Positions 1,761 through 40,187 of a stretch of DNA of 41,723 nucleotides are shown piece after piece. The position numbers and the translations under genes were made by a program. Below the pieces are notes generated by a model, which ran no database searches, was not told where the DNA came from, and saw only the letters and a program-made list of their open reading frames with translations. The stretch comes from Actinomycetes bacterium (GTDB taxonomy: Bacteria > Actinomycetota > Acidimicrobiia > Acidimicrobiales > JAKAVM01): positions 1 through 41,723 of the forward strand of contig JAKAVM010000037.1 of assembly GCA_021827485.1 (NCBI GenBank), in the 5' to 3' direction. Position 1 is the first letter of the stretch, and each line of letters opens with the position of its first letter.

Positions 1761-4700
1761 TTAGGAACAGCCGCTAGTACTCCCACAAGCTGAGCACACA
1801 TAGCAAGAACCTGCACGTTGCATTACATTCCCGCATTGGTAGCAGTAAGGAGCATCGCTGGCTTGAGGCTTGGCGGCAGCTGATGTGCCATTTAGAGTAT
1901 CCGAGCTTGAAGTATTCGAGTTTGAAGTATTCGCGTTTGATCGGGAAGATGATTCACTGGGTATCAATGGGCTACTAGAAGCTCGCAAACCTTCTTCGGC
2001 ACGGTTACGATCGCCTAATCCCCCATCAAGCTTTCCGATATTGGGTGACGCGGCCTCTTCCACTCCAGGGAGGGTCTGTTGTGTCCGTTCTTCGTTAGTC
2101 AATATTCCAAGATCAGCTCGCTCATCTCTTTCGAGATAATCAACTGCTAGTCGCCTAAAGATATAATCAACCAAGCTTGTCGCTAGTCTGAGATCATTGT
2201 CATCAGTCATGCCATAGGGCTCGAACCTCATGTTAGTGTACTTTCGAACAAAAGTTGCCAAAGGTACACCGTGCTGGAGACCAAGACTTACCGCGATTGA
2301 GAAAGCGTCCATAATTCCAGCTAAAGTCGAACCCTGTTTTGAGACTTTCATAAACACTTCCCCAGGACGACCATCTGCATACTCACCAACTGTGACATAG
2401 CCTTCACAATCAGCAACCCTAAAGTGGAAAGTCGAAGAACGTCGTCGTCGTGGAAGCCTCTCTCGGATTGGACGCTTTACCGCAACTTCAGTAAGCAACT
2501 GCCTCTCCAGTTCCTCGATCCTGCTAGCCAACACTGGGTCTCGTCCCTCTCCAAGATTATTCGTCCCGATATCCAATAAATCGGTCGAGTCTTGATCCTT
2601 CTTTGTCGTTGAAAGTGGTTGTCCGACTTTACAGTTATCCCGATAAATAGCAACTGCCTTCAGACCAAGACTCCATGCCTCTACGTGAGCTTCTTCGACA
2701 TCTTCTACAGTTACGTCTTCAGGAAGATTTACCGTTTTAGAGATTGCACCAGAGATGAAGGGTTGAACAGCTCCCATCATCTTGATGTGACCCATATGAT
2801 GAATTACGTTATCGCCCATTGAACATGCAAACACCGCTAGGTCTTTATCCTTGAGGGCTGGTGCACCAACAATAGTTTTGTTCTTATCAATATATGAAAT
2901 GATTTGCTCAACTTCGCTTGGAGAATAACCCAAAACAGCTAGTGCCCGAGGGACAGTCTGGTTGACGATTGACATTGTGCCGCCACCGACTAATTTCTTG
3001 GTCTTGACCAGACCTAGATCAGGTTCAATTCCTGTCGTGTCACAATCCATAAGCAATCCAATAGTCCCGGTTGGCGCCAATACGGTGGCCTGAGAATTTC
3101 TAACGCCGTAGAGTTCGCTTGTGTCAACAGCGTTGTCCCAAGCTTCTTGTGCACATCCAAGTAAATAGGTAGGAACTTTCTCTTCATCAATCTTAGAAAC
3201 TTCTGCTCGATGCATTTTCAAGACATTCAATGTTGCTTCACTATTGTCATAGTATCCGCTGAACGGTCCCATGCGTGCTGCTGTTTTGGCTGAAACTGCA
3301 TATGCATGTCCGGTCATAAGAGCAGTAATCGAAGCTGCCCAAGCCCTACCTTCTTCAGAGTCATAAGGTAGGCCCTGTGCCATTAGGAGAGCGCCAAGAT
3401 TTGCATACCCGAGTCCGAGTTGGCGAAAACGCCTCGAATTCTCCCCAATCTTCTCAGTTGGATAATCAGCATTACCGACCAAGATTTCCTGGGCGGTAAA
3501 AACTACTTCAATAGCGGCCTTGAAACCTTGAGTATCAAAAATATTGTTGTCATCTAGAAACTTGAGAAGATTCAAACTTGCCAAATTGCAAGCTGAGTTA
3601 TCTATATGCATATATTCACTACAGTTGCGCACTACAATACCATCGACCACATAGGAGTGATTGCGCGGTTCTGAAAGGTTGTAGGTTAGCTCGACCCCTT
3701 CATCTACCCTATCCACAAGTCGAACTGTACAACGAACATCGTAGAAGTTCACCGGATTTTCGACAACGAGATCACGGAGCAGTGCTGCCTTGCGTGATAA
3801 GGAAAAACCAATATGGCGAGCAAAATCAACAATCGAAGAGGAGGTGACCCGTAGATCGTAAAAGGGCGACTGGCTGTAGCTTTTGGCTATGCCGTCTTTA
3901 CCCGTATAAGAGAAGGACCCTTGATCGGACCCATCGCGGACTTTGTAGACCTTACTGAAGATGCCGAACGTCGTCAGCAGCCTCTGCACTCCATGGAGCA
4001 GTTCGCGCGATGTGGAACCGAGTCCGACATAGGATCCCTTCACAGCATCGACTCGCACACACCCGTCTGCATCATAGAGCCCTTGTAAAAACGCAGCCAC
4101 TGCATTGAGTGGAGCTTGTTCGATCGACCATGGGATCTCCTTGCCTGGGCCCGTGGCCGACTTCACCCCAAGCGACTCCAAGAACATCTTGAAGGGACGG
4201 TGTGAGATCCTCAACTGCGCAGTACCGTTGGCCTGTTCGGAAACCTTCGGGGCCACGCCGCCGTTGATCCACGTCGCAAGTTCCAGATGGCGGGCAAGGA
4301 CCTCTGCGCGGTCCTCGGCACTACCATAGATCGTCGATGTCGTAGAGCCGGATGTCGAACCATCCCCGATCAGCCACCCCAGGTAGTGAGCAAAGTCCTC
4401 GGTCCACTCACTCGGGAAACGCAGCGGCTTGGTGCTATCTCCCTTCATCTTGTACCCATCAGGATTCGATGGCACAGGTAGGCATAGGTCGGCATTCTCA
4501 GCGGGTGCCAACTGATCTAGCACTTTTACCTCATCCTCACTGGTCAAGGCTTGGGCTTCTACGAATCCGCGATTGGCGGTAAAGATCCGATGCCCCGGGG
4601 TGCACCGAAGTTCCATCCCGTTATCAAAGCGCAGCCGCACAATTTCGTTGTAGCCTGTGATCATAAAGGCCTCTGGCGATGTAATCTCAACCCGTTCCGA

Positions 4701-6959
4701 AGGTGCATCGAGATTAGTAGCATCATGAGTGTAAATACCAAACTCTTCTCCGCTATTTACGCGCCCAATCAATTCCTCGAAGGCGATCAAACCTTTGTCG
4801 GTATGGACGCGAGCAGTACCGGGAAAGCAAGGATTACTTGCATTGATACGGCCAGAGTTGGGTGCTGTATGCCACTTATTAATAGTCGTGTCGAACTGCA
4901 TTCCAGGATCAGCGCACTCCCATGCTGCCTGTGAAATCTGGCGGAAAAGGTCACGGGCTCTAAGCGTCTTTACAGTACTTCCATCTTTGACTGCTTTGAG
5001 ATGCCAGTCTCTATCTTCTATAACGGCTTCCATAAACTCATCAGTAACCCTAATTGAGTTATTTGCATTCTGATATTGAAGCGAGAAGTTATCCTTGCCG
5101 TCTAAATCCATATCAAAACCAGCCTGGGCTAGCACCCGTGCCTTGCGCTCTTCAATTGCTTTACACCAAATAAAATCTTCAATGTCAGGATGATCGACAT
5201 TCAAAATTACCATCTTGGCGGCGCGTCTAGTCTTGCCACCCGATTTTATAGTTCCAGCCGACGCATCTGCTCCACGCATAAAACTTACTGGACCCGATGC
5301 AGTTCCTCCACCCTTGAGACCCTCGTGTGAAGACCTTATCGCTGAAAGATTTATTCCTGCTCCTGATCCTCCTTTGAAGATTATCCCCTCTTCCGTATAC
5401 CAATTTAGAATCGAGTGCATTGAATCGTCTACCGATAGGATAAAGCAGTTGTGCACCCTCAGGTTATCACAGATGTACTCACCGCTCTCTGTTTGAATGT
5501 CATAAACATCGATCTCACCACGCTCTTCTATCTTCTGAATCTCTAAGCGCTTAGTCGGACCAGCAAAATTGCCTTTCATCGCTAGGCTAGCCTCCAGCTT
5601 GGAAGCTTTCACTGGATCAATGAATCCGATCTCATCAGCAAACAGTTCGCGATCTCCGCGATTACTAATCTTGAGTGACCAACAACCATGGCGATCCGAA
5701 CGGCTGTCATTTTTGAATTTCACCCGAGAGAAGATCCCAAACCTCCCCAAAAGTGACTGAACGCCACGCACAATTCCCTCGGAAATCATATCCATCCCAA
5801 TGTGCGCTGCTGTCTCTCGAAGAGATACATAGCCTTCAGCTTGAAAAATACTGCGGAGGTAGGCAGCTACAACTGGAAGTGGAGCATCAAACAATTGTGA
5901 GGGCACTGTCATAGAAGCCCCGCGCGTACGCAATCCCCATGTATCAACGAATTCTGTCAAGTGGTTCCCGTAGAGGCGAATCCGCCTACAATCAAGTGAA
6001 GTATCTTGGGTCGGAACACTTCGTTCGTGTGAATGTGCATTTGGGAAAACCTTCTCAATAGCGTCAAGGACCCACTTCTTCTCTGCATCCGTAACCACTA
6101 TCGCTTCAATAGTGAGAGATCTATTAGTCCCTTCGTACTGGCCAACGAATCCATCCGACTGAAGCCAACCAGCCAAGCCAGCTTGTGCGATGTCCTGATT
6201 GCTAAACTGTCGAGACCCGTGAGAATAAACGCGATGCCACTGCAGCTTATCGCCCGGTCGAAGTTCTCCTGCACGGACAAAGCTTCCATAGGTTTGATCA
6301 GAGCAGCGCCACACCAGGTGATCAGAGGTCACGTCCAAGTAATGCCCAGAATGAGTATGTATACGTAAGACCGGCTTAATCCCGTTGTGCTTTACTGCTA
6401 CGATAGACGTCACACCATTGGCGTCAATAACCTTCGCTCCAACAGCGTTGTCTTCAACTAACTTTCCGATTGGAATTAATCCATCCGGAGTCGTTACTAG
6501 AGATTCGTAAGGTTGGCACGCTGATGCTTGCTGCGGGACTCCTTGAACACCAATGTTGAACCAGACTGGCGAATTGAATGCAGCTTTCTGGGTTACGATC
6601 AAGTGCTTTAGCTCATCGCAAAAAGCATTCGCTTCACTCTGATCAGTAAAGTAGCCATCCCTGATCCCCCAGTTGGTTATTGTGTCAACTATGCGATCAA
6701 CAACTTGCTTGAGAGAAGTTTCGCGTTCGTAGGTTCCAGGAGTTCCTCGAAAGTACTTCTGAGCCAAAATGTTCATGGCATTCAAGCTCCATGCCTTAGG
6801 GACCTCGACTCCAAGCTGTTCAAAAGCAACGCTGTTGTCCTTGTAGTTAGTTATTCGAGAGTCCCTTACCTCCCATTCAACCTGGTTATAAGGGTGTACC
6901 CCTTCGGTTGTAAAGTGACGGCGGATGCCGATGCCAAGTTGTTCTGGTGCAATTGCCAT
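1761..6959 (-). CDS. nrdJ: Adenosylcobalamin-dependent (class II) ribonucleotide reductase with two inteins
   Basis: Encodes a 1732-residue precursor of the B12-dependent ribonucleoside reductase that makes deoxyribonucleotides without oxygen or an iron radical subunit. Removing the two inteins (residues 148-504 and 711-1112) leaves about 973 residues, normal for NrdJ. After splicing the active-site motif N-P-C-S-E forms: N709, radical cysteine C1113 and E1115. The redox pair corresponds to C505 and C1124 (C133 and C333 of the Thermotoga enzyme). The C-terminus has the Cys-rich tail (C1706, C1709, C1719, C1722, C1725, C1731) typical of the actinobacterial family, after a low-complexity Ser/Asn linker (about 1660-1695). 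Two NrdR boxes and a strong promoter lie upstream. Activity should depend on both splicing events. Confidence 0.97.
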   Translation of the reverse strand: MAIAPEQLGIGIRRHFTTEGVHPYNQVEWEVRDSRITNYKDNSVAFEQLGVEVPKAWSLNAMNILAQKYFRGTPGTYERETSLKQVVDRIVDTITNWGIRDGYFTDQSEANAFCDELKHLIVTQKAAFNSPVWFNIGVQGVPQQASACQPYESLVTTPDGLIPIGKLVEDNAVGAKVIDANGVTSIVAVKHNGIKPVLRIHTHSGHYLDVTSDHLVWRCSDQTYGSFVRAGELRPGDKLQWHRVYSHGSRQFSNQDIAQAGLAGWLQSDGFVGQYEGTNRSLTIEAIVVTDAEKKWVLDAIEKVFPNAHSHERSVPTQDTSLDCRRIRLYGNHLTEFVDTWGLRTRGASMTVPSQLFDAPLPVVAAYLRSIFQAEGYVSLRETAAHIGMDMISEGIVRGVQSLLGRFGIFSRVKFKNDSRSDRHGCWSLKISNRGDRELFADEIGFIDPVKASKLEASLAMKGNFAGPTKRLEIQKIEERGEIDVYDIQTESGEYICDNLRVHNCFILSVDDSMHSILNWYTEEGIIFKGGSGAGINLSAIRSSHEGLKGGGTASGPVSFMRGADASAGTIKSGGKTRRAAKMVILNVDHPDIEDFIWCKAIEERKARVLAQAGFDMDLDGKDNFSLQYQNANNSIRVTDEFMEAVIEDRDWHLKAVKDGSTVKTLRARDLFRQISQAAWECADPGMQFDTTINKWHTAPNSGRINASNPCFPGTARVHTDKGLIAFEELIGRVNSGEEFGIYTHDATNLDAPSERVEITSPEAFMITGYNEIVRLRFDNGMELRCTPGHRIFTANRGFVEAQALTSEDEVKVLDQLAPAENADLCLPVPSNPDGYKMKGDSTKPLRFPSEWTEDFAHYLGWLIGDGSTSGSTTSTIYGSAEDRAEVLARHLELATWINGGVAPKVSEQANGTAQLRISHRPFKMFLESLGVKSATGPGKEIPWSIEQAPLNAVAAFLQGLYDADGCVRVDAVKGSYVGLGSTSRELLHGVQRLLTTFGIFSKVYKVRDGSDQGSFSYTGKDGIAKSYSQSPFYDLRVTSSSIVDFARHIGFSLSRKAALLRDLVVENPVNFYDVRCTVRLVDRVDEGVELTYNLSEPRNHSYVVDGIVVRNCSEYMHIDNSACNLASLNLLKFLDDNNIFDTQGFKAAIEVVFTAQEILVGNADYPTEKIGENSRRFRQLGLGYANLGALLMAQGLPYDSEEGRAWAASITALMTGHAYAVSAKTAARMGPFSGYYDNSEATLNVLKMHRAEVSKIDEEKVPTYLLGCAQEAWDNAVDTSELYGVRNSQATVLAPTGTIGLLMDCDTTGIEPDLGLVKTKKLVGGGTMSIVNQTVPRALAVLGYSPSEVEQIISYIDKNKTIVGAPALKDKDLAVFACSMGDNVIHHMGHIKMMGAVQPFISGAISKTVNLPEDVTVEDVEEAHVEAWSLGLKAVAIYRDNCKVGQPLSTTKKDQDSTDLLDIGTNNLGEGRDPVLASRIEELERQLLTEVAVKRPIRERLPRRRRSSTFHFRVADCEGYVTVGEYADGRPGEVFMKVSKQGSTLAGIMDAFSIAVSLGLQHGVPLATFVRKYTNMRFEPYGMTDDNDLRLATSLVDYIFRRLAVDYLERDERADLGILTNEERTQQTLPGVEEAASPNIGKLDGGLGDRNRAEEGLRASSSPLIPSESSSRSNANTSNSNTSSSDTLNGTSAAAKPQASDAPYCYQCGNVMQRAGSCYVCSACGSTSGCS
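3624..4829 (-). other. Intein 2 in NrdJ (LAGLIDADG type)
   Basis: Residues 711-1112 (402 aa). It starts with C711 (C-F-P-G-T-A-R-V), has block B T-P-G-H (787-790), LAGLIDADG motifs YLGWLIGDG (859-867) and LQGLYDADG (958-966), and ends V-V-R-N1112. The +1 residue C1113 is the thiyl-radical cysteine of the reductase. Several lines inside it reach 57-65% GC while neighbouring extein lines are 35-45%, which suggests recent arrival by homing. Confidence 0.95.
5448..6518 (-). other. Intein 1 in NrdJ (LAGLIDADG type)
   Basis: Residues 148-504 of the precursor (357 aa). It begins with C148 (block A, C-Q-P-Y-E-S-L-V) and has splicing block B T-S-D-H (211-214). Two homing-endonuclease signatures follow: LAGWLQSDG (262-270) and the weaker YLRSIFQAEG (367-376). 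It ends V-H-N504, and the next extein residue is C505. The +1 nucleophile is therefore the enzyme's own redox cysteine. GC is about 50%, mildly above the host gene. Confidence 0.95.
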
Positions 6960-7295: not shown

Positions 7296-8831
7296 TTGGC
7301 CGATACGCACTTGTCTAAACCAGCGAGTTCGATCATCGCTATTGATGCCGGAACAACCGGGATCAGAGCAATTGCATTTGAGGCAGAATCAAATAAGATA
7401 CTTTCCATTTCATATCGTGAGCTGACTCAATTTTTCCCTCGACCTGGTTGGGTTGAACACGATCCAAATGAAATATGGAACTGTGTCCAGAAAACATTAG
7501 AAGACGTTGCACATAAACTACATGAAACTTCCTCAAATGTTGTGGCAATTGGAATTACAAACCAGCGTGAAACGATACTTGCTTGGGATAGAACAACAGG
7601 TAAGCCGCTTTACAACGCAATTGTTTGGCAGGATCGTAGAACTACTGAGCAATGTAATGAATTGAAGAAGCGGGACCTTGGGGAATTGATTGGCCAGACA
7701 ACTGGTCTACTGATAGACCCCTACTTTTCTGCCTCTAAGATCAAGTGGCTCAAAGATTCTGATTACTTGTCGGCTAAGAATATTTTTGTTGGGACGGTCG
7801 ATAGCTGGATAGTTTGGAACCTGACAGGCGGAGTAGAGGAGGGTGTGCACCGGACTGATCCTTCAAACGCGTCGCGAACCATGCTATATGACATAAAACA
7901 ACGTTGTTGGTCGCAGGAGCTTATGGATCTTTTTGAAGTTGATAAGACTTGGCTTGCCGAGGTGTGTCCCTCTAGCGCAATCATTGGAAAATATAAGACG
8001 AGCACTAGGAGTTCTCTTCCCCAAGGCGTCCCGATCGCAGGTATTGCCGGAGACCAGGCTGCTGCTCTTTTTGGTCAAGCTTGCTTTACGCCAGCAAGTG
8101 CAAAGACAACTTATGGGACGGGAAGTTTCGTATTGATGAACGCCGGATCAACCCTTCCCCGACCGTCGAATCGCGTTCTCACGAGTATTGCCTGGGAACT
8201 CGATGCGTCTATCGTATCGCAATATCCTAAACTTTGCTATGCCCTGGAAGGTGCTGTTTTCTCAACTGGTTCTACAATCCAATGGCTAAGAGATGGACTC
8301 GGTATAATTACGCAAGCGAGTGGGCTCGAATCGCTAGCTCGACAAGTGTCTAGCACTGAAGGGGTCACCATTGTGCCTGCCTTTACCGGACTTGGTTGTC
8401 CGTGGTGGGATCCAAATGCCAAAGGATCAATATACGGAATCAGTAAAGGTATTGGAAGGTCTCACCTGGCGTTGGCGGTGATTGAATCTATTGCTTTTCA
8501 AGTGCGTGATGCTTTTGATGCCATGAGACAGGTCACAAGCTTTACGACAGACTTGGAGCTGAGAGTCGATGGCGGAGCTGCTGCTATGGAGCTTCTGCTA
8601 CAACTTCAATCAGATCAACTTCAAATCCCAGTCGCTCGTAGCTCAACCATTGAAACAAGTGCCCTTGGCTGCGCATGGTTAGCTGGCCTGGGGGTAAAGC
8701 TCTATGACTCGGTTGAAAGCCTTGAATCGAAGTGGTCGTATGATTTGAGAGTCGAACCAAAGGTCTCAAAGGCCGGTGCGGATGCGAGCCACGACGAGTG
8801 GCTTCGATTGGTTGAAAAAACTCTCACCTGA
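7296..8831 (+). CDS. glpK: Glycerol kinase
   Basis: A 511-residue FGGY-family kinase converting glycerol and ATP to sn-glycerol 3-phosphate in the cytosol. The N-terminal phosphate loop is IDAGTTGIRA. The glycerol contacts known from E. coli GlpK are all present: R91-E92 in NQRET, Y143 in DPYFS and the Asp of AGDQAAALFGQ. GTGSF and the C-terminal DGGAA motif complete the fold. Length is standard. The start is uncertain: no ATG is in frame, TTG at 7296 is used here and TTG at 7311 is possible, both without a clear ribosome site. The upstream 336-bp gap holds the nrdJ control region and a possible promoter (TTGGTA 7229, TATAAA 7253). The gene stands apart from glpD at 27.9 kb and converges with the sulfotransferase gene 14 bp away. 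Confidence 0.95.
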   Translation: MADTHLSKPASSIIAIDAGTTGIRAIAFEAESNKILSISYRELTQFFPRPGWVEHDPNEIWNCVQKTLEDVAHKLHETSSNVVAIGITNQRETILAWDRTTGKPLYNAIVWQDRRTTEQCNELKKRDLGELIGQTTGLLIDPYFSASKIKWLKDSDYLSAKNIFVGTVDSWIVWNLTGGVEEGVHRTDPSNASRTMLYDIKQRCWSQELMDLFEVDKTWLAEVCPSSAIIGKYKTSTRSSLPQGVPIAGIAGDQAAALFGQACFTPASAKTTYGTGSFVLMNAGSTLPRPSNRVLTSIAWELDASIVSQYPKLCYALEGAVFSTGSTIQWLRDGLGIITQASGLESLARQVSSTEGVTIVPAFTGLGCPWWDPNAKGSIYGISKGIGRSHLALAVIESIAFQVRDAFDAMRQVTSFTTDLELRVDGGAAAMELLLQLQSDQLQIPVARSSTIETSALGCAWLAGLGVKLYDSVESLESKWSYDLRVEPKVSKAGADASHDEWLRLVEKTLT

Positions 8832-8845
8832 TCCAACTGGTGACC

Positions 8846-9838
8846 TTAGACCTCATAACCTAGCTCTTGGGCAAGCTCAACTATCCCGTGCCTTTCATTT
8901 GCATTGAGCTCCCAGTGCCACGGAAGTCGAACGGGTTCTGGATGAGGAACCGAATGTATTGACGGACTTTGGAGGAAGCGATCATGCTCGCCACCTGGCG
9001 CATGGGCCGGTCCAGGTTTAGCAAAGGGGGACTCCTCCGGGTGCATCATTTTTGCAATTGACACATCACTGGTGTCGAGTCCTGCCCACTCACAAAATAA
9101 ACGAGCGCTATCAATAGGAAAGTTCAAAAGGTCTTCAGCTCGTAGTCGCAATACCCGCGAACTATCAATCCCTTCACAGAAACGGACAATTCGTTGATTG
9201 ACTGAAAACCAGATTCGACTAGAACGTCGGTAGAGTTCTGCTGAAGACCGACTGCCAACATTTGCAGCCGCAAACGCCTCTTTCATCTTCTGTTGCAACG
9301 ACTCAGTAGCTGTCACCGGATGTCTTACCAAGTGCACAAAGCGGGCTCTAGGATAACTTTCATTGCACAGCATGAGATGTGCTTCTGAGGCCGAAGTGTC
9401 TGGTGATTTCTCAATACCAATTCTAGGAGCAACCTTCTCAAGCAACCGATCAAAAAACTCGGCCGTCGACATTTCACGATGCTCTCTTACCCAACTCCAA
9501 GCTTTATCAACCATCTCTTCCGACTGACTCCCAAAAATAACTTCAGCTACCGATCTCACTGCCCCCGACATTCGCAGCCGCTCTGTCTCCCCAATGGGCA
9601 CGTCTTGAAGTTCGCCACCCGGATCAAGCGCCTCGCCATAAGTATCGCGTGGTCCCCCAAAGGTATCTAGTGCCTCCCCTAGGCTATGGGCGTTGAAAAG
9701 TCGCAACTCAGGAAACCAGTACATCTGGGGATGACTACCTAGAATTGCGATGGAGATTGAGGAGTAAGCGTGCGCATGCGAAAGTATGAAAATTGGAGCG
9801 TAGGTCTCTCGTTCTCGATAGCTTGGTGATTCGTGCAT
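8846..9838 (-). CDS. Sulfotransferase family protein (PAPS-dependent, predicted)
   Basis: A 330-residue protein of the P-loop sulfotransferase family, which moves a sulfuryl group from PAPS to an acceptor. A 5'-phosphosulfate loop-like segment lies at about 19-39 (LSHAHAYSSISIAILGSHP), and the 3'-phosphate motif RFVHLVRHPV at 166-175. The intervening IEKSP (142-146) and C-terminal RAEDLLNFP are family-typical. The loop has HAHAYSS where GSGSSL-like sequence is usual, so cofactor binding is not certain. It starts 5 bp after plsC and is probably co-transcribed, suggesting a lipid or cell-envelope substrate. That is inference. An APS kinase is encoded at 32.5 kb. Confidence 0.8.
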   Translation of the reverse strand: MHESPSYRERETYAPIFILSHAHAYSSISIAILGSHPQMYWFPELRLFNAHSLGEALDTFGGPRDTYGEALDPGGELQDVPIGETERLRMSGAVRSVAEVIFGSQSEEMVDKAWSWVREHREMSTAEFFDRLLEKVAPRIGIEKSPDTSASEAHLMLCNESYPRARFVHLVRHPVTATESLQQKMKEAFAAANVGSRSSAELYRRSSRIWFSVNQRIVRFCEGIDSSRVLRLRAEDLLNFPIDSARLFCEWAGLDTSDVSIAKMMHPEESPFAKPGPAHAPGGEHDRFLQSPSIHSVPHPEPVRLPWHWELNANERHGIVELAQELGYEV

Positions 9839-27717: not shown

Positions 27718-27867
27718 TTGTTATTTACTATTTATTTACTTTGAATCTATTGCAGCCGCTAGCCCCGTCTCCAAAGGCGGGGAGATTCACTATTTCGCAA
27801 AAAGGGGCACCTCTTCTTGTTGCCAATCGAATCGGCCCCAATTGCCTAGTTGTGCCAAGCTTGTCAG

Positions 27868-29535
27868 GTGAACCAATTATTTAACCGTCAAAACTCTCTG
27901 AAACGACTTGTCACCGAGGATTTCGATCTTGTGGTGATTGGGGGCGGAATTACCGGATGTGGCATTGCACTCGATGCCCAATCAAGAGGGTTGAAGACAG
28001 CTTTGATAGATAAGGGGGATTTTGCAAGCGGCACTTCATCAAAATCTTCAAAGCTGGTTCATGGTGGACTACGATATTTGGAACAACATGAGTTTCGGCT
28101 TGTGTATGAATCTCTACACGAGAGACAACGACTCCTGAAAAATGCTCCTCACTTAGTTGAACCACAGCCATTTCTCATCCCACTTTTCGGTAAGGGTGGA
28201 ATTGCGGATAGGACAATTGCTCGAACTTACGCAACTGCTCTGTGGATCTACGATCTAACTGGAGGACTGAGAATTGGAAAGCGTCACAAGAGGATAAGCA
28301 AAGCCGAGGCATCAGCTCATTTGCCTACGCTGCGAACGGAAAAACTTGCTGCAGGATTTATCTACTACGATGCCCGAGTCGATGACGCAAGACTAACACT
28401 TACCGTAGCCAAGACTGCAGCATTGAAGTACGGTGCTTGTGTTGCAAACTATGTCAAAGCTACAAATTTCATAAAAGATTCCAATGGGAAGATTACTAAT
28501 GTTGCAATTGCCGGTGACGCGATTGATGAGGGAAGTTCAATTTCTTGTCGCTGGGTTGTCAATGCCACAGGTGTTTGGGCAGATGAGCTACGTACCATCG
28601 ACGAAGGAGTCCCTGAACACTCGATCAGACCAGCTAAAGGGATTCACATAACAGTTCCTTTCGATAAGCTCCCCTGTGATATAGCTGCTGTTATTCCCGT
28701 CAGACAGGACCACAGATCCATATTCATAATTCCTTGGGCATGGGGAAATCAAACATACATTGGTACAACGGACACCGACTATTCGGGTCCACTCGACGAT
28801 CCTGAATGTACTAGCGAAGATGTTGAATACCTACTAAACGCTGTCAATAGTTTCGTTTCAGATCCAATATCTCCTTCAGATGTAATAGGAATCTGGGCCG
28901 GTTTACGACCCCTTGTCTCATCAGGACCTAAATCAAAGCGTTCGCGAACGGCTGACCTTTCCCGTCGACATCATATTTCAGTCTCGCCATCGAACCTCCT
29001 CACAATAACCGGGGGAAAGCTAACAACTTACCGTCAGATGGCTCAAGATTGTGTTGACGAGGTCCTAGTTAGTATAGATCGTCCTAAGATCAAATGTCAG
29101 ACAAAGCAGCTCAAGCTAATCGGCTCAGAATCCTATGACTTGGCTCAACTTGAAAAGCAAGCTAACCAGCTCAATTTGAGTTCTGAGATGATAGGAATTT
29201 TGAAACGTCGTTATGGTGCTCAGGCCATTGAAGTTATCAAACTTTGTGAAAGCGACCCTAGCTTGGCTAACCAACTAATCAGTGGAGCAAATTATCTCAA
29301 AGCGGAAGTTGTTTATGGTATTCGTTTTGAGATGGCCCAGACAATTGAGGATATCGTTGCCCGTAGAACGCGCGCGTTGCTTGTAGAACAACCTAATCTT
29401 TTGGAATCTATAGATGAGATATCTCAATTGATTGCCCAAGAGCTTGGTTGGGATGAGCCAACAAGGCAGATGGAACTCAAGAACTTTGTGGAAGGTGCCA
29501 GGAGACGCTCAGAACACGCTGGCCTGCTAATCTAA
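27868..29535 (+). CDS. glpD: Aerobic glycerol-3-phosphate dehydrogenase
   Basis: A membrane-associated flavoprotein of about 555 residues oxidising sn-glycerol 3-phosphate to dihydroxyacetone phosphate and passing electrons to quinone. FAD motif VVIGGGITGCGIALDA near residue 23, then SSKSSKLVHGGLRYLEQ, TYIGTTDTDY and the GLRPL region, all family-typical. GTG 27868 is chosen because homology starts there (MNQLFNRQ); TTG 27850 is possible, and neither has a clear ribosome site. First gene of the operon with the AGPS-like flavoprotein, FGGY kinase and cysC; 30 bp separate it from the next gene. Confidence 0.94.
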   Translation: MNQLFNRQNSLKRLVTEDFDLVVIGGGITGCGIALDAQSRGLKTALIDKGDFASGTSSKSSKLVHGGLRYLEQHEFRLVYESLHERQRLLKNAPHLVEPQPFLIPLFGKGGIADRTIARTYATALWIYDLTGGLRIGKRHKRISKAEASAHLPTLRTEKLAAGFIYYDARVDDARLTLTVAKTAALKYGACVANYVKATNFIKDSNGKITNVAIAGDAIDEGSSISCRWVVNATGVWADELRTIDEGVPEHSIRPAKGIHITVPFDKLPCDIAAVIPVRQDHRSIFIIPWAWGNQTYIGTTDTDYSGPLDDPECTSEDVEYLLNAVNSFVSDPISPSDVIGIWAGLRPLVSSGPKSKRSRTADLSRRHHISVSPSNLLTITGGKLTTYRQMAQDCVDEVLVSIDRPKIKCQTKQLKLIGSESYDLAQLEKQANQLNLSSEMIGILKRRYGAQAIEVIKLCESDPSLANQLISGANYLKAEVVYGIRFEMAQTIEDIVARRTRALLVEQPNLLESIDEISQLIAQELGWDEPTRQMELKNFVEGARRRSEHAGLLI

Positions 29536-29565: not shown

Positions 29566-31095
29566 ATGAAGATGCCCACCCCCCCGATTGAATTTGGCAC
29601 TGAATTGAATAAGGTACGCAGCCGCCTACAATCTAAAGCTCGATCAATTCCAGATAGTTTCGTGAAGCTATTAGAGCAAAAATGCGAGAAAGTCTCTAGT
29701 GATAGCGAGCAACTAGCTCAAGCTGGCCGGGACTGGTGGCCACTTGCACTCCACTGGTCTCTTGAAGGCGAGGTCCCGGCAATGCCCCAGATAGTTGCAT
29801 CTCCCAAAAACACCAAGCAGGTAGCCGATGTGCTCAAGGCCTGCACCGAAGCAGAAGTACCTGTGACAGCCTTCGGCGGTCGCTCTGGGGTATGTGGATC
29901 GTCGGTTCCGATCTTAGGCGGCGTTGCCTTAGACATGGGTCTCATGGAGGGACTGGTTGATCTCGATACAGATTCGATGATTGCTAAGTTTCTGCCTGGA
30001 ACTTATGGCCCCGATGTTGAGATTGCCCTACGTAAATCAGGATATACATTGGGACATTGGCCACAGTCGATTGCTATTTCAACTGTAGGTGGGTGGTTGG
30101 CGTGTCGAGGCGCAGGTCAGTATTCAACACGTTATGGCAAGATCGACGATATGGTCCTTGGCCTGGAAGTCGTGCTGGCAAATGGTCAGATTATCAAGAC
30201 AGGAAACGATGCGCCCAAGAACTCTGCTGGTCCGGACTTAACGCAGCTTTTTGTTGGTTCGGAAGGAACATTGGGAATCATCACTCAAGGGACATTTCGC
30301 ATACACCCGGTCCCTCAGGTCGAGAGGAGGGTTGCTTTTGGATTCCAAAGTTTTGCCGAGGGAATGGATGCTTGTAGACGCATACTTCGAAGGGGTGCAA
30401 CACCTTGTGTGCTTCGACTCTATGACGAAGTTGAAACCAAGCGTAACTTTGACGTAGACAATTCCAATCTACTCATTGTGCTTGACGAAGGTGATGAGAT
30501 CATTACCGATGCTTCAATGGCCGTCGTCGAGCAAGAGTGCTCGAGCGCTAAAGTTATGGATGTTGAATTAGTAGCTAAATGGTTAGAACATCGCAACGAC
30601 ACGTCGGCCCTTCAAACACTTACTAAATTAGGAATTGTTGTTGACACCATTGAGATTGCTGCCAAGTGGAGTGCCCTAGAGGATATTCGTAAACAAGTGA
30701 TAAGCAAATTGAACTCAATTGAAGGCAACCTCAACGCATCTGTCCATCAAAGTCATTCTTATACAAGCGGGGCATGCTTGTACTTTACATTTGCGGGAAA
30801 TGCACCCGATGGATGCGAGGATCGAGGACAATGGAATACAAACTTCTATAAACAGTCGTGGCAACGTGTAATGGAAGCAACTTTAGAGCTAGGTGGAACC
30901 ATTAGCCACCACCACGGTATTGGACTGCTACGATCCCCATTCATGAAGTCCGAGATGGGAGAGGGCGCACTCAAAGCATTTGCGGATATAAAGTCAGTAC
31001 TTGACCCAAATGGTATTTTGAATCCGGGAAAGCTTGGACTAACCAGTAATTTAGGAGTTTTTAGGGACATCTTCAGCGACGACTCTGATGGATAG
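29566..31095 (+). CDS. FAD-linked oxidase, alkylglycerone-phosphate synthase (AGPS)-like
   Basis: A 509-residue VAO/PCMH-type flavoprotein. FAD-binding segments AFGGRSGVCGSS and GHWPQSIAISTVGGWLACR, then STRYGKIDDMVLGLEVV, closely follow alkyldihydroxyacetonephosphate synthase (GHFPQS..STVGGW in that family). The catalytic SHHHGIG lies at 447-453. AGPS exchanges the acyl chain of acyl-DHAP for a fatty alcohol to start ether lipids; bacterial relatives may instead be glycolate or D-lactate type oxidases. Position between glpD, whose product is DHAP, and an FGGY kinase favours a triose-phosphate substrate. A clear ribosome site (AAGGA) precedes the ATG. It overlaps the next gene by 8 bp. Confidence 0.85.
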   Translation: MKMPTPPIEFGTELNKVRSRLQSKARSIPDSFVKLLEQKCEKVSSDSEQLAQAGRDWWPLALHWSLEGEVPAMPQIVASPKNTKQVADVLKACTEAEVPVTAFGGRSGVCGSSVPILGGVALDMGLMEGLVDLDTDSMIAKFLPGTYGPDVEIALRKSGYTLGHWPQSIAISTVGGWLACRGAGQYSTRYGKIDDMVLGLEVVLANGQIIKTGNDAPKNSAGPDLTQLFVGSEGTLGIITQGTFRIHPVPQVERRVAFGFQSFAEGMDACRRILRRGATPCVLRLYDEVETKRNFDVDNSNLLIVLDEGDEIITDASMAVVEQECSSAKVMDVELVAKWLEHRNDTSALQTLTKLGIVVDTIEIAAKWSALEDIRKQVISKLNSIEGNLNASVHQSHSYTSGACLYFTFAGNAPDGCEDRGQWNTNFYKQSWQRVMEATLELGGTISHHHGIGLLRSPFMKSEMGEGALKAFADIKSVLDPNGILNPGKLGLTSNLGVFRDIFSDDSDG

Positions 31096-32548
31096 TTCAA
31101 GTGTATTAGTAATAGATGTTGGCACTAGTGGTGTTCGTGCATCAACAATTGATCCTGACTCAAACATTTCAAATGTCTGTTATGAGGCCGTGCTCCCGAA
31201 CTCACCTATGCCAGGTTTTGTCGAGTTTGATCCATTACTTATGGCAAACGCCGCTCTTAGAGTTGCAAATGCCGCGCTTGCAAAATCAGGGCCAGTTTGC
31301 GCGGTGGGTATAGCAAATCAGAGAGCTTCAACAATTGTATGGGAACGAAGATCGGGAAATCCGGTAGGGCCGGGAATTGGATGGCAAGATCTAAGAACGG
31401 TTGGTACGTGCCTTAGCCTTCGTGAAGATGGCTTTAGAGTAGCTCCCAATATGTCTGCAACCAAGTTAGCTTTCTTACTTGGCTTGGCAGATCAAGATTC
31501 TTCTAAGGACCTTTGTTTCGGGACTGTTGATACATGGATTGCGTGGAATCTCTCTCAGGGATCTGTCCATGTAACCGACGCGACCAATGCCGGAGTGACG
31601 GGATTATGGAAGCTTGGAAGCGATAAGTGGGATGACGATATTTTAGAGAAACTGAATATTTCCGAGTCAATACTGCCTAGAATTGTAAACTCATCGGAAA
31701 TAGTTGGCCAAGCAACCAGCCTGCCGGGGGCTCCGCCTATCTGTGGTATAGCAGGTGATCAACAAGCCTCTTTGATTGGCCAGGGGTGCACGACACCCGG
31801 AATAGCAAAAATAACTTTTGGAACAGGAGGCATGCTTGACACCTGTACCGGATCTGCTAAACCGGAATTTGAGGTCAAAGGTCCCAATGGGACATTTCCT
31901 ATCGTTGCCTGGAAGCGAAATGACAGTTATACATGGGGTATTGAAGCTGTGATGCTCTCTGCTGGATCATGTATTGAATGGCTACGTGATGACTTGCAAA
32001 TAATATCTACCGCTAAAGAATCGGAAGCCGTAGCTTCACAGTGTCCAAGCACCGGCGAGGTCTTTTTCGTGCCTGCTCTTTTGGGACTCGGTACTCCCGA
32101 GTGGGACTTGGGCGCCAGGGGTACGTTGCTGGGAATCACACGCGGTACGCAACGCCCTCAAATTGTTAGAGCAGTTCTCGAAGGGATTGCTCAACGTGGC
32201 GCAGACTTAGTTGAAGCTGCTGAAGCAGACTGCAACCTCTCAATTTCTACCCTGCGGGTTGATGGCGGAATGAGTTCTAATGAGATATTTCTCAAGGCCT
32301 TAGCCGATGCCACTGGCCACGTTATTGAAGTGTCGCCTGTACTAGAAGCGACTACTCTGGGGGCTGCCTACCTTGCAGGGATGGCATGTAGCATCTGGGA
32401 AGATGAAGAAGACATTGCGGGGACTTGGGAACCAGGACGAGTGATTGAGCCAACCTTGGCAGATAGAAAAGCTTTGCGGGAGAGTTGGAGAGATTGCTTG
32501 GAACGATCCAAGGAGACCGTACCGGGTCTGTCTAGTTTAGAGTTCTAA
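31088..32548 (+). CDS. Divergent FGGY-family kinase (glycerol kinase-like)
   Basis: A 486-residue FGGY kinase with an intact ATP/phosphate fold (DVGTSGVRAS at 10-19, FGTGGMLDT, VDGGMSSNE). The catalytic Asp of GIAGDQQASLIGQ is kept. Of the other GlpK glycerol contacts, Arg is kept (R79) but Glu is Ala (A80 in NQRAST) and Tyr is Asn (N121 in APNMS). The canonical GlpK at 7.3 kb has all of them. The substrate is therefore probably not glycerol; dihydroxyacetone or another polyol is possible. It overlaps the AGPS-like gene by 8 bp and its stop overlaps the cysC start, so all belong to one operon. Confidence 0.88.
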   Translation: MDSSSVLVIDVGTSGVRASTIDPDSNISNVCYEAVLPNSPMPGFVEFDPLLMANAALRVANAALAKSGPVCAVGIANQRASTIVWERRSGNPVGPGIGWQDLRTVGTCLSLREDGFRVAPNMSATKLAFLLGLADQDSSKDLCFGTVDTWIAWNLSQGSVHVTDATNAGVTGLWKLGSDKWDDDILEKLNISESILPRIVNSSEIVGQATSLPGAPPICGIAGDQQASLIGQGCTTPGIAKITFGTGGMLDTCTGSAKPEFEVKGPNGTFPIVAWKRNDSYTWGIEAVMLSAGSCIEWLRDDLQIISTAKESEAVASQCPSTGEVFFVPALLGLGTPEWDLGARGTLLGITRGTQRPQIVRAVLEGIAQRGADLVEAAEADCNLSISTLRVDGGMSSNEIFLKALADATGHVIEVSPVLEATTLGAAYLAGMACSIWEDEEDIAGTWEPGRVIEPTLADRKALRESWRDCLERSKETVPGLSSLEF

Positions 32549-33111
32549 TGTCGCTCACTATTTGGTTGACCGGATTGCCTTCTGCTGGCAAATCGACGCT
32601 AGCCAGTGAAGTCGGTAAGTTGCTCGATAAACGTGGTCTTGACTTTGAGATCTTAGATGGCGATGTCATGAGGGAGTATCTGACCAAAGATCTTGGCTTT
32701 TCGAGATTGGATAGAGATAATAACGTACGGAGAATCGGATATGTTGCGCAATTATTAGCCTCTCACGATGTAATTGCTATATGTCCGGTGATATCGCCTT
32801 ATAGACAAGCCAGAGCTGAGGTAAGGCAGTTGCACCCACCTGGACGCTTCTTGGAGGTATATATTGCAACTGCCTTAGCTTTGTGTGAAGAGCGTGACGT
32901 TAAAGGGCTTTATGCCAAAGCTCGCAGTGGTGAAGTTGCTAACATGACTGGAATTGATGACCCATATGAAGTGCCTGAAGCGCCTGAACTAACCGTTGAT
33001 ACTGGACAGCGAACGATTGAAGAGTGTTGTGATCAAATATTTGCGCTCGCAATGGCACGTTTAGATTCACTAGCAACCCAGCGCCCGCCTTCGCAAGCGG
33101 GCACCCCGTGA
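32548..33111 (+). CDS. cysC: Adenylylsulfate (APS) kinase
   Basis: A 187-residue kinase making PAPS from APS and ATP. P-loop GLPSAGKST (9-17), DGDVMREYL, the APS lid YRQARAEVR and RDVKGLYAKAR...TGIDDPYE are all in place. It is not fused to ATP sulfurylase and no cysD/cysN gene is in the window. Its start overlaps the FGGY kinase stop. The last roughly 13 codons (from about LATQRPP) come from hairpin repeat C, so the C-terminus is extended by the repeat. PAPS made here could feed the sulfotransferase at 8.8 kb. Confidence 0.93.
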   Translation: MSLTIWLTGLPSAGKSTLASEVGKLLDKRGLDFEILDGDVMREYLTKDLGFSRLDRDNNVRRIGYVAQLLASHDVIAICPVISPYRQARAEVRQLHPPGRFLEVYIATALALCEERDVKGLYAKARSGEVANMTGIDDPYEVPEAPELTVDTGQRTIEECCDQIFALAMARLDSLATQRPPSQAGTP

Positions 33112-36755: not shown

Positions 36756-39700
36756 ATGGACATAAGCGACACTCACCTTATCGTTAGTCCAAGTGACCTT
36801 GTCAACTACCTTTACTGTCCACATCTCACCAAGCTATCTCTGGACTACGTTCGTGGTGAAATCGACAAACCGAATCCTGAAAAAACTGAACGTCCATCTG
36901 TTGCGCAAAGAAGAGGCGTTGAGCACGAAACTAATTACCTTGAAACGATCCGTTCGAGCCAAAGTAGCCTCATCTGTATTGACAGCTCAATTCCTAGAAA
37001 CGAGAGAGTTAGTCAAACCATCAATGCACTCAATGCAGGAGTTGATGTTATCTATCAGGCGGCCTTCTACTCTTGTGACTCGCCAAGACCAGCATGGGTT
37101 GGCTACGCAGACTTTCTCAGACGAGTAGAGATTCCAAGTGGTCTAGGCCCGTACTCCTATGAACCTGAAGATACTAAACTTGCCCGGCACGTTCGGCCAT
37201 CTGCTGTTCTGCAGCTCTGTGAATACTCTGAAGCACTTAGTCGTATTCAGGGAAAAGATCCAGAATATATTCACGTAATTCTTGGAGGCCAGGAACGAGT
37301 ATCTCTGCGCTTAGCTGAGTTCGCCGCTTATTTTCGGATAACCAAGGCCCGATTTGAAAAGGCGCTAGCTTCTAAAATTAGTGCCTATCCAAATCCGGTA
37401 GAGCACTGTGGTGTGTGTACGTGGCGCTTAAGTTGCGATGAGAAACGAAAAAAAGATGATCACTTATCACTCGTGCCAGGACTCTCTAGCGAACAAGCGC
37501 GTAAGTTACGCGATCAGTGTGGGATTGATACAGTCGAGCAGCTTGCAAACGTCCCGAGTGGAGCACAAACGCCAATTTCAACCAAGACATTTGAAAAGTT
37601 ACGCCGTCAAGCAAAGCTTCTTGTTGCCGCCCGTAAGTCTCCAGGTGGGCTTCCTTATGAGCTTCTTAAAATTGATGACCCCAGCTTGGGATTAGGGTCC
37701 CTACCTGAACCCGATCCGGGTGACCTCTTTTTTGACATCGAAGGAGACCCCTATGTAGGAGATGGTGGACTTGAATATCTGCTTGGAGTGGGTTGGGTTG
37801 GAGCTGATGGAAACTTCGACTATAAAGCATTTTGGTGTCACGATTCAGTTGGCGAAAAGTTGTCCTTTGAAGCATTTATTGACTTTGTAGTTGAGCGTCG
37901 TAAGAAGAATCCAAATCTTCACATATACCACTACGCCCCTTATGAACCTTCGGCTCTAGGTCGTCTAATGGGCCGCCATGGTACCAGAGAACAAGAGGTG
38001 GATGATCTGTTGCGAGATGGTGTTCTTGTAGACCTGTATCGAATCGTACGCCAGGCATTATGTATCGGAGTAACATCATATTCCCTCAAAAAGCTTGAAG
38101 CCTTTTATATGACAGCCCGTAGTGATGCCATTACTGATGCTGGCTCGTCAATTGACGAATACGAGAGATGGATTCAAGAGTCCGACGAATCCATACTTGA
38201 AGAATTGGAGAAATATAATCGTGTGGACTGCGAATCGACTCTCGGGTTGCGCAACTGGTTAGAAGATCGGCGCTCTGACTATGAGATGATGTTTGGGATT
38301 GAGCTATCGCGACCAATGCGAATGACCCAGAATGTGAACGCCACGGAGCCTTTAGTAATTCCAGAGGCACAAGAACTAAGAGATAGCCTTTTTGAACTCA
38401 ATACGCACGAGGACAGTTCATCCAAAGTTGGCGCACATCTTCTTGGCGATCTACTCGAATGGCATCGTCGCGAGGACAAGCCCAAATGGTGGAAGTACTT
38501 TGAAAGAGTTCTCTATTTTGAAAGCGACGATTTCTTTCAAGACCCGGAAGCGATCGCTGGCCTCACCTATCAAGGAGTGATAAGACAAGAAAAGGAGTCA
38601 CTCGTCCACCGATATATGTTTGGTCCAGAACAAGAACACAAACTTGCACTGGGAAGTAGACCGCTGGACCCAGCTAGCACTCGTCAAAAGTTGGAAACTA
38701 ATTCCGGACCTCCTAACCCTGGAAGTATTGAGTATCTCGATTCCATAAAGGGAATTATTGACTTGAAGCGAGGGAAAAACTCTCTGGCCCCTCACCCAGA
38801 ACATCTAATACCCGAGGAGCCCATTGGGACTTCCCATCAAAGACAAGCTCTTGTGCGAGTTGCCAAATCTGTTCTCGAATCTCGAATGGTTGGAGAAGGT
38901 AAATATCAAGCTATCCGTGACCTCTTGCTTTGTCGTCCACCTCGTCTCAAGAAAGGTCGCTCTGGAGCTAGCCTTGTAAAGGCTGGTGAAGATGTAAGCG
39001 AAGCGGCCATACGTATTGCTCGTGAACTCAATGGTGGCTGCTTGGCAATTCAAGGCCCTCCTGGATCGGGCAAGACTCGTACGGCAGCTCAAATTATAGT
39101 TTCCCTAGTTGACAAAGGGCACAGTGTTGGAATTACTGCAAATAGCCATGCTGTCATTACAAACTTACTCGAGAAAGTGATGGAACAAGCCTTAGAGAAA
39201 AGTGTTGACGTGAAAGTTTCTCAGAAGATAAGTGATAGGACAAACTTCGACAAACTTCTCTCTAATGTTACATTACGCAAAACTCCAAAAGAGATGGCAG
39301 ATGATCTATCGCAAGGTACCAAGGTCTTAGCTGGAACCTCTTGGCTTTTTTCGAGGCCGGAATTTGATCAAAGTCTTGACTATCTAATCGTCGATGAAGC
39401 GGGCCAGCTCTCGTTGGCAAATGTTTGTGCACTAGGAACCGCAGCAAAGAACCTTGTCTTAGTTGGAGACCCGCGACAACTCTCCCAACCTTCGCAAGGT
39501 ACGCATCCATCAGGAGCGGGGGCCTCAGCTCTAGAACATCTCCTCAATGGCTCACCAACTATTGCGCCGGATAAAGGAATCTTTCTCGACTGTACTCATC
39601 GTCTACATCCTGAAATCTGTAAATTTATATCCGAAATTGTTTACGAGGGTCGCCTGCAATCATATCCAGGATGCGAAAAACAGGTCATTGATGGTTCGGG

Positions 39701-40187
39701 ACTACTCCATGGCTCCGGACTTCGTTGGGTACCAGTCGAACACAAAGATAATCGCTCCTCTTCGATCGAGGAAGCCGACCAGATAAAACTTCTAGTAGAT
39801 GATTTACTTGGTTACTCGTGGAGCGATAATAATGGCGATAAGCGAGCACTAGAACTATCGGATATCTTAATTGTGGCCCCTTACAACGCCCAAGTCTCAC
39901 TCTTGGCTAGCAAGCTTGGCGATGGGGCTCGCGTGGGAACAGTTGACCGATTCCAGGGCCAGCAGGCCCCAGTTGTAATTGTCTCGATGACTAGCTCTAG
40001 CAGCGAGCAAGTTCCACGCTCAATGGAGTTCCTCTACAGCCAGGAACGGCTCAACGTAGCCGTATCAAGGGCTCAAGCAATGAGCATCATAGTTGGCTCT
40101 CCTGGTCTGCTAAGTGTTGAGTGTCGCACAGTGGGTCAGATGCGTCTGGCCAATGGGTTGTGCAGGTTTGTGGAGATTGCTAGTTAA
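36756..40187 (+). CDS. RecB-like nuclease / RNase H-fold / SF1 helicase fusion (TM0106 family type)
   Basis: An 1143-residue multidomain DNA-processing protein. (1) Cas4/RecB-like nuclease (about 10-230) with Fe-S cysteines C21, C218, C221 and C227, a conserved Asp in VGYADF and the DTK motif (139-141). (2) A helical-hairpin linker (about 236-290). (3) DEDD/RNase H-like exonuclease (about 322-515): DIEGDP (327-332), HIYHYAPYE, Y-N-R-V-D-C-E. (4) SF1 helicase (about 690-1140): Walker A GPPGSGKT (767-774), DYLIVDEAGQ, VGDPRQLSQP, TVDRFQGQQ, NVAVSRAQ. The layout matches TM0106-type proteins joined to a Dna2/UPF1-like helicase. It probably acts in DNA repair or defence; the role is not established. 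Ribosome site GGCGGAG precedes the ATG. Confidence 0.9.
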   Translation: MDISDTHLIVSPSDLVNYLYCPHLTKLSLDYVRGEIDKPNPEKTERPSVAQRRGVEHETNYLETIRSSQSSLICIDSSIPRNERVSQTINALNAGVDVIYQAAFYSCDSPRPAWVGYADFLRRVEIPSGLGPYSYEPEDTKLARHVRPSAVLQLCEYSEALSRIQGKDPEYIHVILGGQERVSLRLAEFAAYFRITKARFEKALASKISAYPNPVEHCGVCTWRLSCDEKRKKDDHLSLVPGLSSEQARKLRDQCGIDTVEQLANVPSGAQTPISTKTFEKLRRQAKLLVAARKSPGGLPYELLKIDDPSLGLGSLPEPDPGDLFFDIEGDPYVGDGGLEYLLGVGWVGADGNFDYKAFWCHDSVGEKLSFEAFIDFVVERRKKNPNLHIYHYAPYEPSALGRLMGRHGTREQEVDDLLRDGVLVDLYRIVRQALCIGVTSYSLKKLEAFYMTARSDAITDAGSSIDEYERWIQESDESILEELEKYNRVDCESTLGLRNWLEDRRSDYEMMFGIELSRPMRMTQNVNATEPLVIPEAQELRDSLFELNTHEDSSSKVGAHLLGDLLEWHRREDKPKWWKYFERVLYFESDDFFQDPEAIAGLTYQGVIRQEKESLVHRYMFGPEQEHKLALGSRPLDPASTRQKLETNSGPPNPGSIEYLDSIKGIIDLKRGKNSLAPHPEHLIPEEPIGTSHQRQALVRVAKSVLESRMVGEGKYQAIRDLLLCRPPRLKKGRSGASLVKAGEDVSEAAIRIARELNGGCLAIQGPPGSGKTRTAAQIIVSLVDKGHSVGITANSHAVITNLLEKVMEQALEKSVDVKVSQKISDRTNFDKLLSNVTLRKTPKEMADDLSQGTKVLAGTSWLFSRPEFDQSLDYLIVDEAGQLSLANVCALGTAAKNLVLVGDPRQLSQPSQGTHPSGAGASALEHLLNGSPTIAPDKGIFLDCTHRLHPEICKFISEIVYEGRLQSYPGCEKQVIDGSGLLHGSGLRWVPVEHKDNRSSSIEEADQIKLLVDDLLGYSWSDNNGDKRALELSDILIVAPYNAQVSLLASKLGDGARVGTVDRFQGQQAPVVIVSMTSSSSEQVPRSMEFLYSQERLNVAVSRAQAMSIIVGSPGLLSVECRTVGQMRLANGLCRFVEIAS

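Follow-up and report, generated by a model that had tools for sequence, protein, structure and literature searches.

A variant FGGY kinase beside glpD and an AGPS-like gene in Acidimicrobiia: a possible lipid-glycerol kinase

The question raised by this locus is which substrate is phosphorylated by a kinase of the FGGY family that has the fold of glycerol kinase (GlpK) and has replaced several of the residues on which glycerol specificity depends. The stretch analysed, here called the window, is the entire contig C12 (41,723 bases) of a draft genome (G000; 2.78 Mb, 92% complete), in which the kinase gene is the last of a triad formed with glpD and a gene for an AGPS-like FAD protein, the second and third genes overlapping by 8 bases (Table 1). 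An earlier note on this DNA had placed the kinase in an operon with these two genes, both of which indeed lie directly upstream of it, and had located at 7.3 kb a canonical GlpK, which is found there with all its contacts. The start codon of glpD is uncertain, with TTG listed. Beyond apsK, which follows the FGGY gene, come a malic enzyme and a glyoxalase-like gene; all three are rejected as parts of the module because they are conserved in near relatives only, and of the triads fetched, L033 and L050 alone have apsK next to the FGGY gene.

Table 1. Features of the triad and its surroundings in the window
Feature	Position	Strand	Remarks
canonical GlpK glycerol kinase, comparison copy	7296..8831	+	E, Y, F and all contacts present
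glpD, FAD-dependent glycerol-3-phosphate dehydrogenase	27850..29535	+	triad gene 1; DAO and DAO_C (Pfam)
AGPS-like FAD protein	29566..31095	+	triad gene 2; FAD_binding_4 and FAD-oxidase_C (Pfam)
variant FGGY kinase	31088..32548	+	triad gene 3; FGGY_N and FGGY_C (Pfam)
A80 codon	31325..31327	+	GlpK Glu84 position, by alignment
shortened loop preceding N121	31421..31447	+	about 10 residues below GlpK
N121 codon	31448..31450	+	GlpK Tyr135 position, by alignment
M249 codon	31832..31834	+	GlpK Phe270 position, by alignment
apsK, adenylylsulfate kinase	32548..33111	+	lineage-specific passenger outside the conserved triad

The variant kinase and its distribution

The FGGY kinase belongs to the glycerol kinase branch of its family. 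Its closest solved relatives are glycerol kinases, the predicted model (mean pLDDT 87) has GlpK structures as its best fold matches, and Pfam detects the two FGGY domains only, with none of the Dak domains of the DhaK-type dihydroxyacetone kinase. Compared with GlpK (TIGR01311, NF000756; E. coli 1GLF/1BU6), it shares the fold, about 37-40% identity, Arg83, Trp103 and Asp245, but differs by carrying Ala, Gly or Ser for Glu84, Asn, Ser or Thr for Tyr135 and Met for Phe270, by a loop that is 8-10 residues shorter, and by scores under both curated cut-offs. Specifically, it reaches 402.7 against 590.35 on TIGR01311, a model whose cut-off the window's canonical copy misses as well (573), and 398.4 against 498 on NF000756, which the canonical copy passes (583.7). 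In the window protein, aligned to both E. coli GlpK and the canonical copy, the substituted residues are A80, N121 and M249, and Arg83 and the catalytic Asp245 are kept as R79 and D224. The replacement of Glu and Tyr and the retention of Arg and the catalytic Asp had been read correctly in the earlier note, which overlooked the change of Phe270 and the shorter segment before N121.

According to the accessible text of a survey of the FGGY family, GlpK has five specificity residues (Arg83, Glu84, Tyr135, Asp245, and Phe270), which are extremely well conserved over all GlpK clusters (PMC3245297). Among 127 distinct members of the variant clade, the Glu84 position is occupied by A in 115, G in 8 and S in 3 (1 is not covered), the Tyr135 position by N in 122, S in 4 and T in 1, and the Phe270 position by M in 125 and F in 2; the two members with Phe are L029 and L030, from G018 and G037, where the AGPS-like gene is absent. 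The clade was delimited by an identity of at least 44% to the window protein, the canonical GlpK set leaves out matches of <40% identity or <300 bits, and the residue counts exclude repeats and matches spanning <250 residues. In all 33 canonical GlpKs from the same order, E, Y and F are present, and the spacing between the WQDxRT and SATK motifs is 26-28 residues in 22 of 22 canonical proteins versus 18-19 in 95 of 95 variant matches. Being fixed across 127 distinct members, the changes are not a product of chance, and the reading of the protein as a chance or degenerate copy is rejected. The alignments support the assignment of the variant kinase to a subfamily of the GlpK branch that is conserved and non-canonical.

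The clade protein occurs in 30 of the 41 genomes searched around the window, in 29 at an identity of at least 49% and in G039 as fragments. In a phylum sample of 396 genomes, 28 matches (E <= 5.3e-165) are separate from the rest, the next one being at 1.2e-133, and 27 of them come from the same order and 1 (G056) from the same class. The clade is thus nearly restricted to one actinobacterial order, and the named matches among the best 80 of 521 loci are mostly Acidimicrobiia, including Aciditerrimonas ferrireducens, Ilumatobacteraceae, Microthrixaceae and Acidimicrobium; a small number carry other names, one of them Myxococcaceae (L119). For 59 of these 80 loci, the available sequence extends 4 kb or more upstream of the kinase; within them, the AGPS-like gene is found upstream in 57 and together with glpD in 56, the exceptions being L100 and L121, which lack both genes, and L119, which lacks glpD. 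Certain named loci and genome loci share one contig (for example, L065/L037 from G010 and L068/L038 from G011), so that locus counts are not fully independent. A divergent triad is present in G036 (L063; identities of 35-36% for the kinase, 40-41% for the AGPS-like protein, and 34-37% for GlpD), and its kinase likewise combines a short loop with a small residue in place of Glu84.

All fetched loci taken together comprise 90 full triads, 11 partial ones and 15 in which the FGGY gene stands alone. At least 8 of these 15 have enough flanking sequence (L058, L059, L100, L121, L250, L251, L252, and L255), indicating that the three genes are not strictly interdependent. In several of these eight, the outer neighbours are unchanged, which would fit a loss of glpD and the AGPS-like gene.

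The two flavoproteins and their genomic context

A profile built from 14 of the AGPS-like proteins gives 281 bits with Dictyostelium AGPS and 257 with the mammalian enzyme, compared with 184 for D-lactate dehydrogenase. The fold search also places AGPS on top, with D-lactate dehydrogenase nearly equal; this search is poor at telling the two apart. Known AGPS proteins (4bby, 2uuu; M. xanthus MXAN_1676) are the best sequence matches, the aligned identity in the fold match being about 22-25%, and the equivalents of R419, Y578 and the HHH stretch are retained. In the profile alignment, R284 corresponds to Arg419, Y406 to Tyr578, and H448-450 to His615-617 of AGPS; the sites mutated in the Tyr578Phe (4bca) and Arg419His (4bc7) chains coincide with Y406 and R284. 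Of 22 AGPS-like proteins from triads, all 22 have R284 and 21 have Y406 and His448-450, whereas the three positions read E, H and A-E-H in a GlcD-like protein from this genome. Moreover, the AGPS-like protein stays far below the curated GlcD cut-off (217.5 vs. 567.9 bits). The cut-off, the profile scores and the site residues lead to the rejection of an ordinary GlcD/D-lactate enzyme; the middle gene is supported, at the level of its sequence, as encoding a predicted active site of the AGPS type and not of the D-lactate/glycolate dehydrogenase type.

The genome of the window also encodes a second AGPS homologue on contig C19 (226 and 200 bits against eukaryotic AGPS, 88 against D-lactate dehydrogenase), flanked by two acyl-CoA dehydrogenases, and relatives of this second protein lie near a fatty acyl-CoA reductase (FAR) in G010, G017, G014, G008 and G040. 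Since the second homologue scores closer to eukaryotic AGPS, the triad protein is not the first candidate for an ether-lipid synthase. The interpretation in the earlier note, with its ether-lipid branch, is supported in part: the AGPS active site in the neighbour of the kinase speaks for it, the better score of this second homologue against it. The gene context also differs from that of M. xanthus MXAN_1674-1676, described in the accessible part of PMC9131029, where AGPS is accompanied by FAR/GNPAT: the triad protein sits with glpD and a kinase.

The first gene of the triad encodes a GlpD with motifs that look canonical, 3da1 as the best PDB match and a score on NF008899 (342.2) slightly under the cut-off of 360. 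It is the sole GlpD in its genome at E<=1e-30. Of 27 genomes carrying a triad-type AGPS, 26 have no GlpD besides that of the triad, the exception being G007 with two; the fragmented copies in G003 and G011 were each taken as one. As the triad GlpD is usually the only one of the genome, it must serve ordinary glycerol 3-phosphate too.

The search for a fatty acyl-CoA reductase proposed in the earlier note is successful in that G000 encodes one (FAR, Sterile and HAD), although genomes lacking the triad have the enzyme just as often. Strong matches are present in 36 of 41 genomes, among them each of the 11 that lack the clade FGGY, and weak matches in all 14 control genomes, and FAR presence was dropped as a marker of the triad. 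FAR may serve wax ester formation, because neutral-lipid synthesis genes are reported for Acidimicrobiia in the available text of PMC10351704. Plasmalogen synthesis via CarF/PEDS1 is unsupported, as PF10520 is found in 1 of 41 genomes, namely G015, which lacks the triad.

Kinase exchange beside the AGPS-like gene

Elsewhere in the phylum, AGPS-like genes related to that of the triad have a different kinase as neighbour. The 40 loci fetched there were chosen non-randomly, the strongest first and then a spread; 35 carry an AGPS-like gene, 3 of these are FGGY triads, and 32 were compared. In a tblastn search for DAGK neighbours that started from four seeds confirmed by Pfam, a DAGK_cat/YegS lipid kinase lies within 3 kb of the AGPS-like gene in 19 of the 32 loci, and glpD lies within 4.5 kb in 19 as well, both together in 15, with a remote FGGY protein (23-24% identity) in 2. 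Among the FGGY triads, conversely, DAGK is found in 0 of 96 and FGGY within 3 kb in 95 of 96. In a FastTree phylogeny read without its support values, the AGPS-like proteins of the triads group as a single clade adjacent to those associated with DAGK. Genes for TetR and hydrolase proteins are present in several DAGK-form loci, and acyl-CoA dehydrogenase genes are near both the FGGY and the DAGK forms in part of the loci.

The M. tuberculosis protein Rv2251 is presumably an AGPS-like flavoprotein of this kind. The available text of PMC4564863 gives Rv2249c as glpD1, Rv2250c as a regulator, Rv2251 as a flavoprotein and Rv2252 as a diacylglycerol kinase, with similar BCG ratios of 2.28, 2.11, 2.16, and 2.20, respectively. 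As far as that source goes, the plan shared with the triad consists of glpD, an AGPS-like flavoprotein and a kinase; the mycobacterial set differs by a TetR-type regulator and by a DAGK_cat kinase in place of the FGGY protein.

The DAGK_cat kinase beside related AGPS-like genes indicates that the variant FGGY fills the slot of a lipid kinase, which makes the substrate proposed in the earlier note, another polyol, less likely than a lipid-substituted glycerol. The exchange is local, since 32 of 41 genomes still have DAGK genes at other loci. Their absence is not significantly tied to FGGY (8/30 vs. 1/11 genomes, P=0.40) and was dropped as a genome-wide marker; the mean number of copies is 1.37 with FGGY and 2.45 without (P=0.036, uncorrected for kinship). 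Taken jointly with the reading of the kinase as acting on lipid glycerols, the triad may represent the version, seen in Acidimicrobiia, of a glycerolipid module more widespread among Actinobacteria, with the kinase exchanged, a proposition we hold tentatively and at slightly less than an even chance.

Proposed function and competing readings

The function that we consider possible, if still somewhat short of probable, is that the variant FGGY phosphorylates 1-O-alkylglycerol or monoacylglycerol and feeds the chemistry of GlpD and the AGPS-like protein. The kinase would phosphorylate a glycerol that bears the chain on its sn-1 oxygen, at the end left free: the loss of Glu84, the small residue at position 135 and the shortened loop would accommodate the chain, with Arg83, Trp103 and the catalytic Asp245 retained. 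The resulting alkyl- or acyl-glycerol 3-phosphate might enter phospholipids directly, which would explain the lone-kinase loci. Alternatively, it might be oxidised at C2 by GlpD, should GlpD accept it, or by a relative, giving 1-O-alkyl/acyl-dihydroxyacetone phosphate, to our knowledge the only substrate class of AGPS, whose chemistry could then swap or remove the chain. A chain-bearing glycerol is the simplest substrate that would combine the lost contact to the far hydroxyl, the gained room and the replacement of a lipid kinase beside an AGPS-type enzyme. As for the substrate, we infer the direction, which would be salvage or breakdown rather than synthesis: GlpD oxidises, acyl-CoA dehydrogenase genes are nearby in part of the loci, and the synthesis genes (FAR and the second AGPS) sit elsewhere. 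The proposed reaction would be that of alkylglycerol kinase (EC 2.7.1.93), a mammalian activity for which we know of no gene. Against this reading, the role of GlpD on ordinary glycerol 3-phosphate is certain and that on the alkyl form is not, FGGY genes occur alone, and DAGK genes are present elsewhere in the genomes; moreover, we know of no lipid-acting FGGY enzyme and of no AGPS that works backwards.

The same genes could instead supply ether-lipid synthesis, with GlpD providing DHAP, the AGPS-like protein forming alkyl-DHAP and FGGY adding glycerol 3-phosphate or dihydroxyacetone phosphate to the pool. The retained AGPS residues and the wide occurrence of strong FAR matches are in line with this, as is the observation, in the accessible part of a study on mouse cells, that the GlpD homologue GPD2 provides DHAP for ether lipids (PMC9830446). 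It is nonetheless unlikely, given that the triad has no conserved GNPAT-like, reductase or FAR gene beside it, that FAR is equally present without the clade FGGY, that the second AGPS of G000 is closer to the eukaryotic enzymes and has relatives near FAR in 5 genomes, and that the altered glycerol pocket is left unexplained. An action of FGGY on another small substrate, such as dihydroxyacetone or a short polyol, with the AGPS-like protein oxidising a related hydroxy compound and the operon feeding DHAP, appears similarly improbable. Substrate change is frequent among FGGY kinases, as stated in the accessible part of PMC3245297, the operon GlpD leads to DHAP, and the fold of the AGPS-like protein is also near that of D-lactate dehydrogenase; yet no conserved transporter, isomerase or aldolase is seen with FGGY, lone FGGY loci would strand an odd phosphate, a sugar phosphate would need further enzymes, the site residues are of the AGPS and not of the hydroxyacid-dehydrogenase type, and the exchange with DAGK is at odds with such a substrate.

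The kinase might also still phosphorylate glycerol, its pocket having been remodelled for a lower or regulated affinity, and work with its GlpD in an ordinary glycerol operon. The closest relatives and folds are those of GlpK, the gene adjoins the sole GlpD of the genome, and G012 and G037 lack any other strong GlpK. Nevertheless, three specificity residues and the loop have changed jointly and are fixed, most carriers retain a canonical GlpK, and glycerol use has no need of an AGPS-like gene, all of which makes this reading quite improbable. A far-reaching form of the preferred, lipid-directed reading, which we regard as rather doubtful, would make the protein the first lipid FGGY kinase, a 1-O-alkylglycerol kinase opening a route of ether-lipid salvage or breakdown in which GlpD-type oxidation and AGPS-type cleavage give back the glycerol moiety as DHAP, with DAGK_cat performing the first step in mycobacteria and relatives.

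No description of the triad was found in the literature searched, a body in which subscription papers are mostly absent; of the branch that the earlier note called undescribed for this group, actinobacterial AGPS homologues are already mentioned in the available text of a Black Sea survey (PMC11868695). Regarding the family, the accessible text of PMC3245297 describes the GlpK branch as unchanged in specificity, and the clade breaks this rule, with three of the five specificity residues altered. The exchange of FGGY and DAGK_cat kinases beside the same two flavoproteins leads to a testable function for the gene set, including M. tuberculosis Rv2249c-Rv2252. If the substrate is alkylglycerol, the clade would provide a sequence for alkylglycerol kinase and a bacterial ether-lipid route besides the monooxygenase.

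AGPS homologues and fatty acyl-CoA reductases in the genome

In the window's own genome, the second AGPS homologue is flanked by two acyl-CoA dehydrogenase genes, and a fatty acyl-CoA reductase (FAR) is encoded near its relatives in G008, G010, G014, G017 and G040. The FAR-Sterile-HAD gene of the same genome stands in line with alcohol-dehydrogenase-like, Lar_N-domain and PlsC-like acyltransferase genes.

Features in the window and in its own genome, G000 (C, contig; L, fetched locus)
Feature	Location	Strand	Remark
Class II ribonucleotide reductase	window 1761-6959	-	split by intein and LAGLIDADG segments, reportedly two apiece
Sulfotransferase	window 8846-9838		adjoins canonical glpK
apsK	window 32548-33111		joined to FGGY kinase gene
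1143-aa large ORF	window 36756-40187		putative nuclease-helicase, from sequence
Second AGPS homologue	C19, L208:4637-6265		scores nearer eukaryotic AGPS
Large protein	C112, L261:6430-9117		FAR, Sterile and C-terminal HAD domains

AGPS-like genes beside FGGY kinases elsewhere

At two loci of another class (L230, L244), remote FGGY kinases (23-24% identity) are encoded at most about 2 kb from an AGPS-like gene, with a cysteine-rich/Fer4 protein encoded between the two at L230. Locus L119, in a record named Myxococcaceae, holds FGGY and AGPS-like genes adjoined by a sulfatase and lacks glpD; its occurrence under that name may reflect contamination or transfer.

Sulfur-related neighbours

The junction of apsK with the kinase gene is limited to the window's genus and family. 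Given the placement of apsK and the sulfotransferase, a sulfated lipid is conceivable.
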